Part shown: positions 2 to 6,584 of the stretch, one piece after another
Position numbering within the stretch: the first letter of the stretch is position 1
Layout of the letters: the number at the start of each line of letters is the position of its first letter
NCBI GenBank assembly: GCA_003576905.1
Contig: QEVG01000004.1
Coordinates: 62,001-126,000 of the forward strand
Source: Planctomycetota bacterium
Lineage (GTDB): Bacteria > Planctomycetota > Phycisphaerae > UBA1845 > UTPLA1
Length of the DNA stretch: 64,000 bases
Direction of reading: 5' to 3'
Translations under genes and position numbers: made by a program
The notes under the pieces: model-generated
Seen by the model: the letters and a program-made list of their open reading frames with translations, nothing else
Told to the model about the DNA's origin: nothing
Database searches by the model: none

Positions 2-1399
2 GGTGTGAGCCGCGCCGAGGAGCCCGCCAAGCAGCAGCCGCAGAATGCCGACCCCCATGCCGGGCACAATCACGCCCAGCCAGCCAACCCGCCGCAGAAG
101 ATCACGGTGCCGGCGAACCAGGTCAAGCCGGGCCAGCCGGCGCAGCTTCGTCCTGGCGAGACGGCTCCGCTGCCCCCGCCGAACGCGATGAAGGGTCCGG
201 CGACTCCGGTGAAGCCGACGCCCGGTCAGGACATTCCCGCGCCGACGGTCGTGCTGAAGGAAGGCGAGGTTCCGGCGATCAAGTTCGACACGCCGACGTA
301 CGAATTCGGTCGCGTCCGCTCGGGTCAGGAAGTCGTGCACGATTTCTGGTTTACGAACACCGGAACCGGCCCGGTCGAGATTCTGAAGGTCCGCCCCTCG
401 TGCGGTTGCACGACGGCCGGCCAGCATGACAAGATCGTCCAGCCCGGCCAGACCGGCAAGATTCCGATTCGACTCAACCCCGGCAACGCCAGCGGCCCGA
501 TCCACAAGACGATCATGGTGAACACGAACGTTCCCGGCGAGGGCTCGACGGTTACGCTGCACATCCAGGGCGAGGTGTGGCATCCGATCCAGGCGACGCC
601 GACGAGCGCGTCGTTCGGTCGATTGACGAGCGAGATGGCCGCTTCGGCGAGCATGGAGCGCAAGCTGACGATCGTGAACAACACCGAGGAGAAGGTGACG
701 GTCAGCGATCCGAAGAGCAGCAATCCGTCGTTCAAGGCGACGGTAAACCCGCTGGAAGAGGGCAAGAAGTTCGAGCTGGTCGTCACGGTGGTTCCGCCGC
801 TGGCCTCGGGTCCGGTGACGGGCAACATCGAGCTGACGACGACGCTGGCCGACATGCCGAAGATGCTGATCCCGGTGAACGCGTACGTCACGGCGGACGT
901 GGACGTGACGCCGAACCAGCTCACGCTTCCGGCCAACCGGAACGGCAACATCCAGCGGCAGTTCTTCATCCGCAACAACACGCCGAACCCGGTGAAGGTT
1001 TCGGACCTGGCCTCGACGAACGAGAACCTGAAACTGTCAATCGTCGAGACCCAGCCGGTGGGCAAGGCCTATCGGCTGACCGTCGACATTCCGCAGGATT
1101 ACGTCGTCGCTTCGGGCGGTGACAAGATCACGCTCAAGACCGACAACAAGAGCGTTCCGACGCTGACGATTCCGATCAACTCGGCACCGTCGATCGCGGA
1201 CGTGACCAAGCAGTTCGGCACGACGCCGACCCAGACGACGCCGGGCGCGGCGACGCCCGCGGCCCCGGCCGCTCCTGCCGCCGGCGCGGCAACGGGCACG
1301 GCCGCCGGCGCCAAGCCGGCGACGCCGCCGGTTCAGCAGGTGCCGCCGCAGGCCCAGCCCGCGGGCTCGGGCACTCCGGCCGCCGGTTCCGGGAAGTAG
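2..1399 (+). CDS. DUF1573 domain exported protein, 5' end outside window
   Basis: The frame is open to the left edge; a GTG at 5 is possible, but there is no room for a signal peptide or ribosome site, so the true start is probably upstream. Residues about 92-190 (counted from the GTG) form a DUF1573 domain, with the typical EFGRVRSGQEV strand and the SCGCTTA cysteine segment. Two further beta-sandwich repeats of similar spacing follow to about residue 400. The N terminus is Pro/Gln/His rich and the C-terminal 65 residues are an Ala/Pro/Gly low-complexity tail, as in cell-envelope proteins. DUF1573 proteins are extracytoplasmic Ig-like proteins of unknown exact role, common in Planctomycetota and Bacteroidota. 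A strong hairpin follows, then rhodanese and MauE-like genes on the same strand. Confidence 0.85.
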   Translation, partial: GVSRAEEPAKQQPQNADPHAGHNHAQPANPPQKITVPANQVKPGQPAQLRPGETAPLPPPNAMKGPATPVKPTPGQDIPAPTVVLKEGEVPAIKFDTPTYEFGRVRSGQEVVHDFWFTNTGTGPVEILKVRPSCGCTTAGQHDKIVQPGQTGKIPIRLNPGNASGPIHKTIMVNTNVPGEGSTVTLHIQGEVWHPIQATPTSASFGRLTSEMAASASMERKLTIVNNTEEKVTVSDPKSSNPSFKATVNPLEEGKKFELVVTVVPPLASGPVTGNIELTTTLADMPKMLIPVNAYVTADVDVTPNQLTLPANRNGNIQRQFFIRNNTPNPVKVSDLASTNENLKLSIVETQPVGKAYRLTVDIPQDYVVASGGDKITLKTDNKSVPTLTIPINSAPSIADVTKQFGTTPTQTTPGAATPAAPAAPAAGAATGTAAGAKPATPPVQQVPPQAQPAGSGTPAAGSGK

Positions 1400-1415
1400 T
1401 CGTTTATCCTGCTCC

Positions 1416-1453
1416 AGCCCTGGTGGTGTCGGAATATCGGCACCACCAGGGCT
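1416..1453 (+). terminator. 13-bp perfect hairpin after the DUF1573 gene
   Basis: AGCCCTGGTGGTG at 1416-1428 is exactly complementary to CACCACCAGGGCT at 1441-1453 with a 12-base loop. It begins 17 bases after the stop codon. No T tract follows, so termination or mRNA 3'-end protection is inferred from position and stem strength only. It could instead be an attenuating element before the rhodanese gene. Confidence 0.6.
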
Positions 1454-1496
1454 CCTTCATCGGCGGGCATCGCTGCCGGGAAAGGAATCGTGGGCC

Positions 1497-2090
1497 ATGC
1501 TTCGTGAACTCGGCATGTGCGTCGTGCTGATGGCGATCAGCGCCGGTCTGGCCGTCGCGACAAACGTCTTCCGCGCCGACGAGGGCAAGAGGCTTCCCTG
1601 GATTCGGCGCGGTCTTCCGATGGAGGGCTCGGCCGCCCGCTCGGACAATGCCGGCAAAGGGCCCAACGCGGTCGGTCAGACCGATCCGAACGCCGGGGAA
1701 ACTCCCGTGACCGCGCCGGCGGCGGGCGAAGCGCCCGGCGCAAGCGACGTGACTATGGAAGAAGTCCTCGCTGCGCTGGCCGGAAACACGGCGTACTTCG
1801 TGGACGCGCGGGAGAAGGCGGAGTATGTCGACGGCCATCTGCGCGGGGCGGTGAATCTGCCGTCGAGCGCGATCTATGAGAACGCGGACGCCGTGACGGC
1901 GGTCGTTCCGCCCGACGCGCGGGTGATCGTCTATTGCGGAGGCGGGCAGTGCGAGGCGAGTCACAACGTCTCCGACGCGCTGCGCCGCGATTTCGGATAC
2001 CAGAACGTGGTGATCTACACGAAGGGCTGGGAAGAAGTGCTGACCAGCGGCCGATTCGCCGAGCTCATCGCGCGGGGAGAACAGCCATGA
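1497..2090 (+). CDS. Membrane-anchored rhodanese-like domain protein
   Basis: 197 residues. An N-terminal hydrophobic segment (residues about 5-22) acts as signal or anchor, followed by an Ala/Pro/Gly linker. From about residue 82 there is one rhodanese domain, with the FVDAREKAEYVDGHLRGAV motif and an active-site loop YCGGGQCEAS whose catalytic Cys is residue 147. The loop carries a second Cys (152) where many rhodaneses have Arg or Lys. Single-domain exported rhodaneses bind or transfer sulfane sulfur; the donor here is unknown. The stop codon overlaps the start of the next gene (ATGA), so the two are translationally coupled. With the neighbours it suggests an envelope sulfur or thiol-redox function. 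Confidence 0.85.
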   Translation: MLRELGMCVVLMAISAGLAVATNVFRADEGKRLPWIRRGLPMEGSAARSDNAGKGPNAVGQTDPNAGETPVTAPAAGEAPGASDVTMEEVLAALAGNTAYFVDAREKAEYVDGHLRGAVNLPSSAIYENADAVTAVVPPDARVIVYCGGGQCEASHNVSDALRRDFGYQNVVIYTKGWEEVLTSGRFAELIARGEQP

Positions 2091-2575
2091 CCGCCGACGC
2101 AAGAATCAAGCTGCGCAACGTGGTGAGCAATCTGTGCCTCCTCGCGGTGGCGGGCGTGTTCATCTACGCGGCACAGTCGAAGATCATTGAGCCGCGGCAG
2201 TTCATCATCGACATCAAGAACTACCGCATGGTCCCCGAGGAACTGCTCAACCTGATGGCGCTCTTTCTGCCGTGGGTGGAGATGGTCGCCGCCGTGGCTC
2301 TCCTGATCCCGCAGACGCGCCGGGCGGGCGCGACCCTGACCATCGGCATGCTCTGCATGTTCATCGCCGCGGTCAGCTATGCGGCGCTCTACAAGGGATA
2401 CAACATCTCGTGCGGCTGCTTCGGCAAGGGCAGCGCCGGCGCGGGCATCAAGACGATCGCGCTGGATATCGGTCTGATCATCGCGACCATCATCGGCCTG
2501 CTGCCGCGGCGCACTGTGTCGGCGGCATCTCAAGCGGCGATGGCCGAATTCGCCGTGGCCGGACAACAGGCGTAG
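2087..2575 (+). CDS. MauE/DoxX-like integral membrane protein
   Basis: 162 residues with four predicted transmembrane segments. The start ATG at 2087 overlaps the rhodanese stop. After helix 3 it has the motif YNISCGCFGKGS, the Cys-Gly-Cys-Phe-Gly signature of the MauE family (methylamine utilisation, PF07291), members of which are linked to periplasmic disulfide handling. There are no mau genes nearby, so a role in methylamine metabolism is not supported. Association with DUF1573 and rhodanese genes points instead to maintenance of envelope thiols or a secreted redox partner. Confidence 0.8.
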   Translation: MTADARIKLRNVVSNLCLLAVAGVFIYAAQSKIIEPRQFIIDIKNYRMVPEELLNLMALFLPWVEMVAAVALLIPQTRRAGATLTIGMLCMFIAAVSYAALYKGYNISCGCFGKGSAGAGIKTIALDIGLIIATIIGLLPRRTVSAASQAAMAEFAVAGQQA

Positions 2576-2847: not shown

Positions 2848-3678
2848 ATGGCGCAAGGTAACTCCGGGCCGGTGCCCGCGACGAAAAGTCGGAACAGCAG
2901 CGTCGGGCTGCAACTGCTGCTGATACTGGATATCTGGGTTCGCACGATGATCTGGGCGGTGGCGCTGAGCGTCACGCTGATGGCCCTGTCGCGAACCAGC
3001 TTCGTGCGCACGGTAACGTGGGACGGTCTGCGGACCTGGAGCGGGGCGTGGGGGTTCACCACGACGCTCACGAACTTCATCCTGCTGTTCAACGTTGCTT
3101 ACGTCCTGACGCTGGTGCTCGTCCGGCTGCCGTTCCCCTCGCCGAAGCCCGGCGTCTATCGCACCGACCGCGGGCTGGACAAAAGCATCATCGTCGCGGC
3201 CCTGCTGGCGGTCCTGACCAAGGCGCGTTTCCAGGCGCCGTTTCCGGGCATCTTCGTCGCGCAGCTTGCGAGCATCATGCCGTTTCGCTGGCTGCTCGGC
3301 CGGACCATGGGTCCCGTCACCCGCTCGAGCTTCTTCATTGATCCAAACATCATCGACCCGTGGGGGGTCGAGGTCGGCAAGAATGTTACGATCGGCTTCG
3401 GCTCGACGATTACGTGCCACCTTCAGGAGCGCGACTACATCATCGTGGACCGGGTGGTGATCGAGGACGACGCCAGCATCGGCGCCTACGCGGGCATTTC
3501 GTGCGGCGTGCACATCAAGCGCGGCGCGGTTATCGAGCCCTACGCCGCCATCAAACCGCGCACCGTTGTCGGCGAGTACGAGCTCTGGGGCGGACGCCCG
3601 GCGTTCAAAAAGGGCACGGTCCGGCCTGCAGCGGCAAATGCGGAGCGGTCGGCGGTCGAATCCACGACCTCGGTATGA
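2848..3678 (+). CDS. Membrane-associated hexapeptide-repeat acyltransferase-like protein
   Basis: 276 residues. Two or three hydrophobic helices occupy residues about 15-105. From about residue 165 the sequence follows the isoleucine-patch hexapeptide pattern of left-handed beta-helix acyltransferases (IIDPWGVEVGKNVTIGFGST, later VIEDDASIGAYAGISCGVH, and a final VVGEYELWGGRPAFKKG cap). The WGGRPA end resembles serine- and sugar-O-acetyltransferases. The substrate cannot be deduced. The gene lies 123 bases upstream of a methyltransferase-condensation fusion on the same strand, so they may modify the same lipid or small molecule. Confidence 0.75.
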   Translation: MAQGNSGPVPATKSRNSSVGLQLLLILDIWVRTMIWAVALSVTLMALSRTSFVRTVTWDGLRTWSGAWGFTTTLTNFILLFNVAYVLTLVLVRLPFPSPKPGVYRTDRGLDKSIIVAALLAVLTKARFQAPFPGIFVAQLASIMPFRWLLGRTMGPVTRSSFFIDPNIIDPWGVEVGKNVTIGFGSTITCHLQERDYIIVDRVVIEDDASIGAYAGISCGVHIKRGAVIEPYAAIKPRTVVGEYELWGGRPAFKKGTVRPAAANAERSAVESTTSV

Positions 3679-3801
3679 CGGATCGCCGGGCAGGGCGGGG
3701 AGTTTGGCGTGTCCGCGAGCGCGGATCGCACGATTTGAGTTTTTCAACGGCCGCCCCCAAAATCTTCGCCCAAGCCTCACACAAGTCGGCGGGTCTTCGT
3801 C

Positions 3802-5859
3802 ATGCCTCTGCATCCTGTTCCCACCCTGCTGCTCGGTCTTATTGTGTCCGCATACTGGACCTACGTCGGCTGGATGGTCTGGCGCGTTCGCCGCGACGCC
3901 GGCCATGTCGGAAAGGTTCTCGTCCCGGTGCAGCTTCGGGAAAAGCTGATGTGGGTCCTCTGGGTTCCGGTCATCGCCGGCTGGGGCTCGACGCCGCTGC
4001 GCGTTGTCGTCGGCCTGACTACGCGCTTCGAGGTTATTGTGCTGCCCGCGGCGATGGCCGGGAGTTCGGCGTTTCTCGTGATTCGCTGGATCGCGTCGGG
4101 CATCGCGCTGGCGTGCCTCGCGCTGTCGGTGGTCACGTGGCGGCACATGGGCGAACAATGGCGGATGGGAGTCGATCCGAAGCAGAAGGTTCGCCTGCTG
4201 ATCGATGGACCGTTCTCAAAAGTCCGGCACCCGATCTATTCACTGAGCATCCTGCTGATGATCTGTTCGGTGATCATCCTTCCGTGCCCGACGATGATCG
4301 TGCTGGCGGCGATTCACATCTCGCTGATGCACATCAAGGCCCGCAACGAGGAGAAGTTCCTCCTTGAGACGAAGGGGCCGTCGTATGCGGAGTATTGCCG
4401 CAAGACGGGGCGGTTCGTTCCCTATGTTCGCAGCGGCATGCCGGCGCACGTACCGCACATGGACGGCAGCGAGACAACGCCCGACGCGCCGATCCGCGGC
4501 TGGAAGGCGGGCGGGCAGTATCCATTCCGGTTCAACTTCTTTCAGCAGTCGATGCTCCGCTGGGACGGGCTGCATCCCTACAACGCGGTGCATGCGGTGC
4601 GCGTGCTCGGCCCGGCAAACGTGGAAGCGCTTCGCGCGGCGGCATGGGACGTGTGCAAGGCGGCAGAGTTGGGCGAACTGGCGATCAACTACTTCCGAAC
4701 TGCCTACGAGTATCGCCCCCTTCAGGTGGTCCGCGTGCAGGAACTCTCGCCCGGCCGGGACGGCGAAGCCCGGCTGGCCGAGGTCGTTACCGAAGAGATC
4801 AACACGCCGTTTCACGGGGACGTGCATCACCCGATTCGGTGGACGGTTTTCAATGAAGAAGGCGGCGCAGCGCACTATGTCGTGCTTTGCTATCACCATG
4901 CGGTTTCCGACGCGTTCGGGATCGAGCGGCTGCTGGCGGCGGTGCTGCGGAGGTACCTGGGACTGCCGCCGGGCGAGGAGGACGGGGCCTGGACCACACG
5001 GCTGACGCGCCTCGACCGATCGCTGCGGCCTCGAACCGGCGTGATCAACCACGTGATCGGGCAGATGCGGCTGTCGTTGCGCCATCGGGAGATGCGCCGC
5101 GTGCACAAGATGCCCGATGAGCGCCTGGGGGGCGATTACACGGCGGTGGCCGTGCGGACTGCGCGGGCGGATCTCATGGATCGACTGGCGGCGGTCTGTG
5201 AGCGGCGCGGCGTCGGCGTGAATGATGCCTTGATCGCGGCATTTGCATCCGCAATCGCCGAGCAGACGCCGGACCGCCGCACCAGCCGACGACGGAAGTA
5301 CCTGGCGATGGCCACGGTGGTCGGCGCGCGCCGCAATCTGCCGCGCGAAGAGGCCGCCGACTTCGGCGTGTGCCTGTCGAGCATCATGGCCGTGCTGCGC
5401 CGGCCGGACGCGCCGGTGGCGGAACTGGTGCTGGACGTAACGCGGCAGACGCGGGCGCTCAAGACGAACCCGCGGCGCGCGGCGGCGGAGACCAATCTGC
5501 GCTATTTCGCGATTCGCTGGCTGTGGTGGCTGGCCGCGGTGAGGCACAACCGGCGGAGCTATCGCCGGGTCTTTCCGATCTGCGGCGGCGTCAGCACGGT
5601 GTATGTCGATCAAAACCGGTTTGCGGACTTGGGGCAGCGGGTGACGCGCTACGTCCGGGCGTGTCCATGCGGGCCGGTCATGCCGCTGCTTCTGGGTCCG
5701 ACGATTTATCAGGGCCGACTGGAATTGGGGCTGACCTATCGCATCGCGAGCCGGACGCGTGCGGAGGCCGAGGCGATGCTGGACGGAATTCTCTCGCGGC
5801 TTGAGGAGTTGTGCGCGGATCCGTCAGGGGGCGGCGAGGGCGCGTCGCCGCGGGCCTAG
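3802..5859 (+). CDS. ICMT-like membrane methyltransferase fused to a condensation-type acyltransferase domain
   Basis: 685 residues, two unrelated halves in one continuous frame. Residues 1 to about 220 contain about five transmembrane segments and the isoprenylcysteine/phospholipid methyltransferase core: GPFSKVRHPIYS, then an RNEEKFLLETKGPSYAEYCRKTGRF-type segment with the E-E and Y-x-x-Y positions used for S-adenosylmethionine binding in the ICMT/PEMT superfamily. Residues about 245-680 resemble NRPS condensation or wax-ester/PapA-type acyltransferases, with the catalytic HHAVSDAFG motif (HHxxxDxxG) at about residue 370. No carrier or adenylation domain is present, so a stand-alone acyl transfer to an alcohol or amine is more likely than peptide synthesis. 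The stop overlaps the stop of the convergent hydrolase gene. Confidence 0.8.
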   Translation: MPLHPVPTLLLGLIVSAYWTYVGWMVWRVRRDAGHVGKVLVPVQLREKLMWVLWVPVIAGWGSTPLRVVVGLTTRFEVIVLPAAMAGSSAFLVIRWIASGIALACLALSVVTWRHMGEQWRMGVDPKQKVRLLIDGPFSKVRHPIYSLSILLMICSVIILPCPTMIVLAAIHISLMHIKARNEEKFLLETKGPSYAEYCRKTGRFVPYVRSGMPAHVPHMDGSETTPDAPIRGWKAGGQYPFRFNFFQQSMLRWDGLHPYNAVHAVRVLGPANVEALRAAAWDVCKAAELGELAINYFRTAYEYRPLQVVRVQELSPGRDGEARLAEVVTEEINTPFHGDVHHPIRWTVFNEEGGAAHYVVLCYHHAVSDAFGIERLLAAVLRRYLGLPPGEEDGAWTTRLTRLDRSLRPRTGVINHVIGQMRLSLRHREMRRVHKMPDERLGGDYTAVAVRTARADLMDRLAAVCERRGVGVNDALIAAFASAIAEQTPDRRTSRRRKYLAMATVVGARRNLPREEAADFGVCLSSIMAVLRRPDAPVAELVLDVTRQTRALKTNPRRAAAETNLRYFAIRWLWWLAAVRHNRRSYRRVFPICGGVSTVYVDQNRFADLGQRVTRYVRACPCGPVMPLLLGPTIYQGRLELGLTYRIASRTRAEAEAMLDGILSRLEELCADPSGGGEGASPRA

Positions 5860-6584
5860 GGCTCCGGCATGAGCCGCAGCGCTTCGGCAATGACGAAGTT
5901 GTGCATGAGCTGGTTGGCGTCCATGCTGAAATGATCGGCGCAGCCGACGCCGTCGCCGAGGGCCTCGCGGTTGAACTGGCGGTTGGAGATGTCGGTCGTC
6001 GTGTTGCCTTCCTCCGGCACGACGGGATTTCCCGAGAAGATATCCGGCGCCAGGTAGCCCGGCAGCCACGGGTTGTAGTAGTGGACGCAGCGGACGACGT
6101 TGTCGGGGATGGGATCGGGCGAGGTGGCGTCCATCAGGAAGAGCAGGTCGACCTTCATGCCGAACTGCTTCATGTAGATTGCCATGCGGATGGCATCGTC
6201 GGCGCCGTAGCTGTGGCCGACCAGCATGAACGCGCTGCCGTCGTTTCGGCCGGCGTAGTCGCTGACGATTTTCTGCACGGCCGGCTCCCAGAGGGGCCAC
6301 GCGACGAGGGTCGGCTCGAGATTGACGGCGAGCATTTCTTCGGCGAGGCGGTCGAGGCCGAGGGAGTAGTCGTTTTGATATCCACGCAGGAGGTAGATTT
6401 TCGCGCGATCCGCGAAATCCCTCGAAGGGATGTTTTCGATCCGAAGCGGCGGTGTCGGACCCAGGGCACACGTCCACGGAAGGACATCGTCAAACGCGAG
6501 CATGCCGTTGCCGCATCCGCACGGGGACAGGGCAAACACCGCGGCCAGCGCGCAGGCTGGGACTCGACTGTTGTGGCGCTTCAT
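5856..6584 (-). CDS. Exported alpha/beta-hydrolase (lipase-like)
   Basis: 242 residues. The N terminus MKRHNSRVPACALAAVFAL is a signal peptide ending near a Cys-rich SPCGCGNG, possibly but not ideally a lipobox. The nucleophile elbow is GHSYG, preceded by a hydrophobic strand (FMLVGHSYGADD). A LFLMDATSPDP segment could supply the acid, and a His near the C terminus (CADHFSMD) the base. The pattern resembles small secreted lipases or thioesterases; no substrate can be named. It is transcribed toward the methyltransferase fusion gene, with the two stop codons overlapping. Confidence 0.75.
   Translation of the reverse strand: MKRHNSRVPACALAAVFALSPCGCGNGMLAFDDVLPWTCALGPTPPLRIENIPSRDFADRAKIYLLRGYQNDYSLGLDRLAEEMLAVNLEPTLVAWPLWEPAVQKIVSDYAGRNDGSAFMLVGHSYGADDAIRMAIYMKQFGMKVDLLFLMDATSPDPIPDNVVRCVHYYNPWLPGYLAPDIFSGNPVVPEEGNTTTDISNRQFNREALGDGVGCADHFSMDANQLMHNFVIAEALRLMPEP

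Follow-up and report, generated by a model that had tools for sequence, protein, structure and literature searches.

A methyltransferase-acyltransferase fusion converges on a hydrolase gene

In a stretch of 64,000 nucleotides from a Planctomycetota bacterium (contig QEVG01000004.1, positions 62,001 to 126,000 of the forward strand; the whole stretch is referred to as the window), we analyzed a gene that joins a membrane methyltransferase (MT) of the ICMT/PEMT type to a condensation/PapA-type acyltransferase (AT), together with the convergent gene for an alpha/beta hydrolase. In positions of the window, the features are:

3802..5859, plus strand: fused membrane methyltransferase-acyltransferase (MT-AT), 685 residues; a single open reading frame (ORF) with an ATG start and no internal stop
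3802..4431, plus strand: ICMT/PEMT-type MT domain, residues 1-210 (Pfam, PDB profile match, hydropathy)
4225..4239, plus strand: RHPIY motif, residues 142-146, invariant in 14 of 14 aligned MTs
4432..4530, plus strand: inter-domain linker, residues 211-243, 33 codons (analysis of nonsynonymous substitution rates, dN)
4531..5856, plus strand: divergent condensation/PapA-type AT domain, residues ~244-685 (profile matches)
4894..4911, plus strand: HHAVSD, residues 365-370, the AT catalytic motif
5856..6584, minus strand: alpha/beta hydrolase, predicted to be exported and lipoprotein-like, 242 residues, convergent to the fusion (ORF, alignment, model)
6204..6218, minus strand: nucleophile elbow GHSYG (Ser125) of the hydrolase (alignment)

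The stop codons of the fusion and of the hydrolase gene overlap in CTAG (5856-5859). An earlier reading of this DNA from its letters alone (the sequence-only reading) had described one 685-residue frame carrying two domains. This description is borne out by the uninterrupted frame from its ATG and by two motif sets that are both intact and conserved; GPFSKVRHPIYS and YHHAVSDAF are both found in the window fusion. As for the Pfam families that it had proposed, the assignment of the MT stands, ICMT and PEMT passing their gathering cut-offs over residues 102-188 (28.3 bits against a cut-off of 24 and 26.8 against 25, respectively), whereas Condensation (PF00668) matches residues 303-391 at 15.5 bits (17.1 for the window member in the comparison of the aligned ATs), below its cut-off of 30.6.

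The MT part of the window protein has hydrophobic segments at about residues 8-26, 52-86, 90-108 and 150-168. Both PF04140 and PF04191 match all 14 aligned MTs at E <= 1, and the glutamate pair downstream of RHPIY (EE, residues 183-184) is likewise invariant in 14 of 14; we take RHPxY with a downstream EE to be the motif of the ICMT/PEMT superfamily. Compared with the PDB, the alignment profile of the 14 MT parts finds the ICMT structure 4a2n at 1e-19, and the protein-S-isoprenylcysteine O-methyltransferase model NF040696 gives 65.2 for the whole window protein and 69 for the domain alone, under its cut-off of 160.

In the HHxxxD motif of the AT, the second histidine is invariant in all 14 aligned sequences, the first is variable and the aspartate is present in 13. 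Condensation matches 12 of the 14 ATs at E <= 1 (best 6.4e-14) and PapA_C six (best 0.0053); no PapA_C match is listed for the window protein at E <= 10, the HMMER filters of that search discarding most weak matches. In the PDB, the profile built from the 14 AT parts finds the PapA-type chain 8s6l at 1.9e-11, along with many condensation domains. The NCBIfam model TIGR02946 for wax ester synthases/diacylglycerol acyltransferases (WS/DGAT) matches residues 322-670 of the window protein at 4.2e-6 and six of the 14 aligned ATs (best 1.1e-6), and ND and GP motifs in the AT resemble those that we assume to belong to the WS/DGAT family. These likenesses would suit a storage or neutral lipid, with the AT as its wax ester/diacylglycerol synthase and the hydrolase as a lipase mobilizing the product. 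We consider this improbable, as the WS/DGAT score is about a tenth of the curated subfamily cut-off (27.9 against 309.95), the best solved relatives of the AT are PapA-type enzymes and condensation domains (the DGAT chain 6chj reaches 0.045), and a storage lipid leaves the MT without a role.

The fusion is genuine and alternates with split neighbors

An uncultured planctomycete whose genome was assembled separately (locus L032 of genome G504) has the same fusion, 75% identical over residues 1-670. A single open MT-AT frame is present in seven genomes altogether (the window's own, G000, and G504, G489, G427, G498, G406 and G055), the last of which lies elsewhere in the phylum, outside the window's order, and shares 29% identity. 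In six further genomes (G441, G471, G459, G502, G395 and G421), MT and AT are separate neighboring genes, three of the pairs sharing a frame across a gap of 3 to 27 bases and three overlapping by 4 bases. Between the window and L032, the rates of nonsynonymous and synonymous substitution (dN/dS) are 0.172/1.5 overall and 0.027/1.09 in the 33-codon linker; in comparison with the fusion of G489 (L060), the linker dN of 0.165 is slightly lower than that of the two domains (0.217 and 0.221), all with dS values near saturation. Judged by these codon comparisons, the fusion is under purifying selection, including across the junction. A frameshift or a chimeric assembly, which the sequence-only reading had itself raised as a possible source of the joined frame, can thus be ruled out: the frame is fused in seven genomes, selection extends across the junction, and the split forms are ordered and adjacent.

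In a tree of the joined domains, the fused/split state changes at least four times by parsimony, of which well-supported branches force at least two, and a single clade of the order's six fused forms, set apart from the split forms and G055, is rejected (p 0.021). The repeated change between fused and split neighbors supports the earlier idea that MT and AT act in one pathway. A second AT locus in G055 (L039 7295-8420, contig C156) lies in broken pieces with no MT found alongside and is probably a decaying copy or an assembly fault.

Searches were made in genomes of Planctomycetota, in genome contigs by a single pattern scan, and in records of viruses and plasmids. Among viral contigs, none of 38 pattern matches was a relative; plasmid records gave five matches, to the MT part only, at 28-35% identity.

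An alpha/beta hydrolase is the consistent partner of the methyltransferase

We compared 14 neighborhoods (15 kb of the window and 4.5 to 19.5 kb elsewhere) by their ORFs of at least 90 residues. Besides MT and AT, and with opposite-strand and overlapping-frame shadows set aside, only one family is common to at least three of them, the alpha/beta hydrolase. In 15 of 17 loci its gene is next to that of the MT: 10 of 12 in the window's order, G055, and four of four in a distant genus designated g24. In 12 loci it is the gene directly upstream, in the orientation of the MT and separated from it by -4 to 57 bp (at start codons of our choosing), and in the window, L032 and L060 it lies downstream. 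No carrier, assembly-line or polyketide synthase gene is common among the compared neighborhoods.

The distribution of the hydrolase follows that of the AT. In a profile scan of the window's order, the AT was found in 12 of 114 genomes at E <= 1e-160, with one marginal match in G432 (9e-6). A hydrolase of at least 290 bits is present in 10 of these 12 genomes, and the remaining 102 yielded none (Fisher 1e-12; at most 14 AT and 23 hydrolase candidates were scored per genome, and related species are not independent). Among 392 genomes drawn evenly across the phylum and scanned with a single sequence at 1e-5 and a profile at 1e-12 (7 candidates scored per genome), the hydrolase occurs in three, in all of them beside an MT. 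Paralogues exist as well: around the six best unlinked copies (two each in G502 and G489, one each in G503 and G493), no MT or AT was found in the 9-13 kb fetched. Together with a copy in G427 discussed below, these six made up the paralogue inspection, in which 17 weaker matches (E 6e-15 to 5e-6) were set aside.

Two further observations concern the distribution. G503, of the same genus as G000 and G504, has no AT or fusion match and distant hexapeptide acyltransferase copies only, so that a genus with the set can include a member lacking all of it. G432 has, at L097 3460-5771 (contig C231), a distant PapA/condensation-type acyltransferase (PapA_C 7e-19) beside a gene that by eye is short-chain dehydrogenase-like; no MT or hydrolase was found near it in the 6.4 kb fetched.

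The candidate catalytic triad of the hydrolase consists of Ser125, Asp152 and His218, of which the serine and the histidine are invariant in a 17-row alignment and the aspartate nearly so. Thioesterase (PF00975) scores 18.7 on the window hydrolase, below its gathering cut-off of 26.4, and matches 11 of 12 aligned hydrolases at E <= 1 (best 2.6e-7). A predicted model of residues 36-242, computed from two sequences, has a mean predicted local distance difference test score (pLDDT) of 76.5, and its best PDB match is mycobacterial TesA (Z 14.3, root-mean-square deviation 3.0, 152 residues), although many other hydrolases score nearly as well. The model thus predicts an alpha/beta hydrolase fold with a GHSxG elbow, a match that speaks for the fold and not for a TesA function. 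A cysteine follows the N-terminal hydrophobic stretch, which suggests a lipoprotein, and 14 of 17 hydrolases, among them 13 of the 15 beside an MT, fit a lenient lipobox pattern. By these sequence features the enzyme is probably exported and located outside the cytosol.

Another acyltransferase takes the slot in one genus

In four species of genus g24 (G342, G533, G551 and G614), a membrane acyltransferase of the Acyl_transf_3 family, the hydrolase and an ICMT-like MT follow one another in this order on one strand. The gene rows are:

L038, 2296-5058
L106, 6021-8901
L107, 5818-8594
L108, 2557-5140

The g24 acyltransferase matches PF01757 at 1.8e-26 and is MdoC-like (139.6 bits against a cut-off of 338). 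Our AT profile does not match it, and no condensation-type AT was found in the fetched stretch of any of the four loci. These species are the only four of the 151 genomes of their order with the hydrolase. Two acyltransferase families in one slot beside the same two partners are, in our view, the strongest sign that the three activities serve one product. The repeated changes between fused and split forms, in combination with this unrelated acyltransferase in the same slot, indicate that acylation and methylation are functionally tied.

The hexapeptide gene may be an accessory in one family

Upstream of the fusion lies a second acyltransferase gene:

2848..3678, plus strand: hexapeptide-repeat acyltransferase with hydrophobic N-terminal segments (Pfam Hexapep, 6.7e-9)

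The sequence-only reading had paired this gene with the fusion in a two-gene system acting on one substrate. Within the window's family the pairing does track: a likely orthologue is present in four of five module-positive genomes and in none of nine module-negative ones (Fisher 0.005), and the orthologous clade (window, L032, G489 and G502) has a support of 100/99. The nine negatives contain distant copies only, scoring at most 232.9 bits as compared to at least 321.8; four of them are placed outside the clade by the tree and five are judged by score alone. With few independent lineages in the family, shared descent may explain the pattern. Among the compared neighborhoods, the window and L032 alone have the gene adjacent to the fusion, the orthologues of G489 and G502 being unlinked, and no match at 1e-10 was found in any of the seven module-positive genomes of other families. 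A two-gene system therefore seems to us a poor prospect, and the hexapeptide gene is rejected as a core partner outside the one family, being rarely adjacent and absent from the seven positives elsewhere; the consistent partner is the hydrolase. In the window's family it may be an accessory. The unlinked orthologue in G502 (L113 4562-5497, contig C7) lies near genes for a GDP-mannose dehydratase, an epimerase and a fatty acid desaturase, surroundings that hint at a glycolipid context.

Further upstream in the window (5-2575), genes for a DUF1573 protein, a rhodanese-domain protein and a MauE/DoxX-like membrane protein stand in a row; no relatives of them were found in the other module neighborhoods.

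A putative three-function envelope module

We propose that the fusion and its convergent hydrolase form a module that acylates, methylates and de-acylates an envelope lipid or ester, a reading to which we assign somewhat less than even odds (roughly 0.45). It builds on the recognition of three enzyme families with intact motifs, on their linkage and co-occurrence, and on the exchange of fused, split and replaced acyltransferases among the loci. From these we infer that the enzymes share a substrate and that it is a lipid, as well as the donor, the side of the membrane on which each acts and the sequence of steps. The membrane MT would transfer a methyl group from S-adenosylmethionine to a membrane-embedded substrate. 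The AT, held by the fusion at the cytosolic face, would acylate either that substrate or a precursor of it. This placement follows from the C-terminal part of the MT, which is rich in lysine and arginine; by the positive-inside rule, that part, and hence the AT, should face the cytosol. The exported, lipoprotein-like hydrolase with its TesA-like fold would act on the product across the membrane and remove or turn over the acyl (or methyl) ester. The likeliest class of substrate is an O-acylated, methyl-capped envelope lipid, possibly a glycolipid. In its fullest form the proposal is more doubtful: a fused membrane enzyme making a hitherto undescribed kind of acylated and methylated envelope lipid or lipid-derived signal, which a dedicated lipoprotein hydrolase would trim outside, with an AT slot open to non-homologous enzymes.

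Several observations weigh against the proposed module. No gene that would name a pathway is common to at least three of the compared neighborhoods, and the predicted model of the fusion is unusable (mean pLDDT 34.9). The fusion of G427 (L061) has no hydrolase near it although 4.4 kb of upstream sequence is present; a lower-scoring hydrolase (239 bits) on another contig of that genome (C222) scores like the unlinked paralogues and is not counted as the module's own. None was found at L064 of G498 either, on a contig of 4.5 kb in a genome that is 75% complete. The lipobox of the window hydrolase is imperfect (LSPC/CGC), and three of the 17 hydrolases fail even the lenient pattern. In the tree of joined domains several forks are weakly supported, the fused/split label clusters no more than it does when shuffled (225 of 500 shuffles were as low), and separate MT and AT trees conflict in places, for example at L066. 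Finally, the g24 arrangement is limited to one genus and one lineage, and a neighboring epimerase is more conserved there (83-90% identity) than the acyltransferase (61-71%); since the epimerase is also kept, relatedness may maintain part of the g24 gene order.

Two other products are to be weighed against this proposal. In the first, the substrate is lipid A or a related phospho-glycolipid, on which the MT would cap a phosphate in the manner of LmtA, presumably the enzyme that does so in Leptospira, and the AT would add a secondary acyl chain. The model of the LmtA lipid A 1-phosphate methyltransferase (TIGR04571) indeed matches 14 of 14 MTs (best 3.8e-8), all 29 genomes tested have LpxC, the G502 hexapeptide orthologue lies near nucleotide-sugar genes and the g24 acyltransferase is MdoC-like. 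The LmtA scores, however, are far under the cut-off (23.2 against 325 bits in the window), the isoprenylcysteine MT model likewise picks up all 14 of these MTs and the methanethiol MT model 12 of them, and LpxC does not separate module-positive from module-negative genomes, all of which makes lipid A an unlikely substrate. A type III polyketide or phenolic lipid, on the assumed precedent of methylation by SrsB/BpsB-like enzymes, was also considered as the methyl acceptor and rejected: PF02797 is over its cut-off in four of 12 module-positive and two of 12 module-negative genomes and not in the window genome, and shows no useful association with the module. With LpxC in every genome tested and no useful polyketide association, neither marker names the substrate.

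The second product would be a secreted or membrane-diffusible methyl or acyl ester, serving as a signal or a protected small molecule that the fusion makes and the lipoprotein-like hydrolase degrades or activates outside. The coupling of maker and hydrolase on predicted opposite sides of the membrane fits such an ester, as does the patchy distribution (12 of 114 genomes), which is that of dispensable traits. No receptor, regulator or exporter gene, on the other hand, is common to at least three of the compared neighborhoods, and we regard the diffusible ester as fairly unlikely.

Relation to known systems

Each enzyme kind of the proposed module is already known; going by sequence, what would be a new variant is the fusion, its grouping into a three-gene unit and the exchange of the acyltransferase, of which searches of open-licence full texts found no description, as judged by titles and abstract beginnings. 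The MT shares with ICMT/PEMT-type enzymes (Ma-ICMT 4a2n, LmtA and MddA) the family, the RHPxY and EE motifs and an alignable C-terminal half, but it scores far under the cut-offs named for isoprenylcysteine MT, LmtA and MddA and has an acyltransferase and a hydrolase as fused or coupled partners. The AT resembles PapA-type acyltransferases and nonribosomal peptide synthetase condensation domains in its PDB matches and in the catalytic xHxxxD; it differs in falling below the Pfam cut-off in the window, in having no shared assembly-line or carrier gene in its neighborhoods and in being fused to a membrane MT. The hydrolase has the GHSxG elbow and the fold of TesA/PF00975 thioesterases and other alpha/beta hydrolases, while its N-terminal signal-like stretch with a cysteine probably places it outside the cytosol and its score lies below the Pfam cut-off.

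The set as a whole resembles the mycobacterial tailoring set for dimycocerosates, which we take to consist of PapA5, TesA and a methyltransferase. The three kinds of activity are the same, the AT profile best matches a chain named after that system's transferase, and the hydrolase model best matches TesA. Unlike that set, the planctomycete neighborhoods share no polyketide synthase, the MT is of the membrane ICMT type and the hydrolase is predicted to be exported.

Taken together, the module probably makes and trims a modified envelope lipid or ester and would represent a small, patchily inherited gene set of planctomycetes. It would provide a minimal set of three functions on a short piece of planctomycete DNA, which could be transferred whole to a laboratory host in a search for its product, and it suggests what bacterial ICMT-like methyltransferases with no other assigned role may do.

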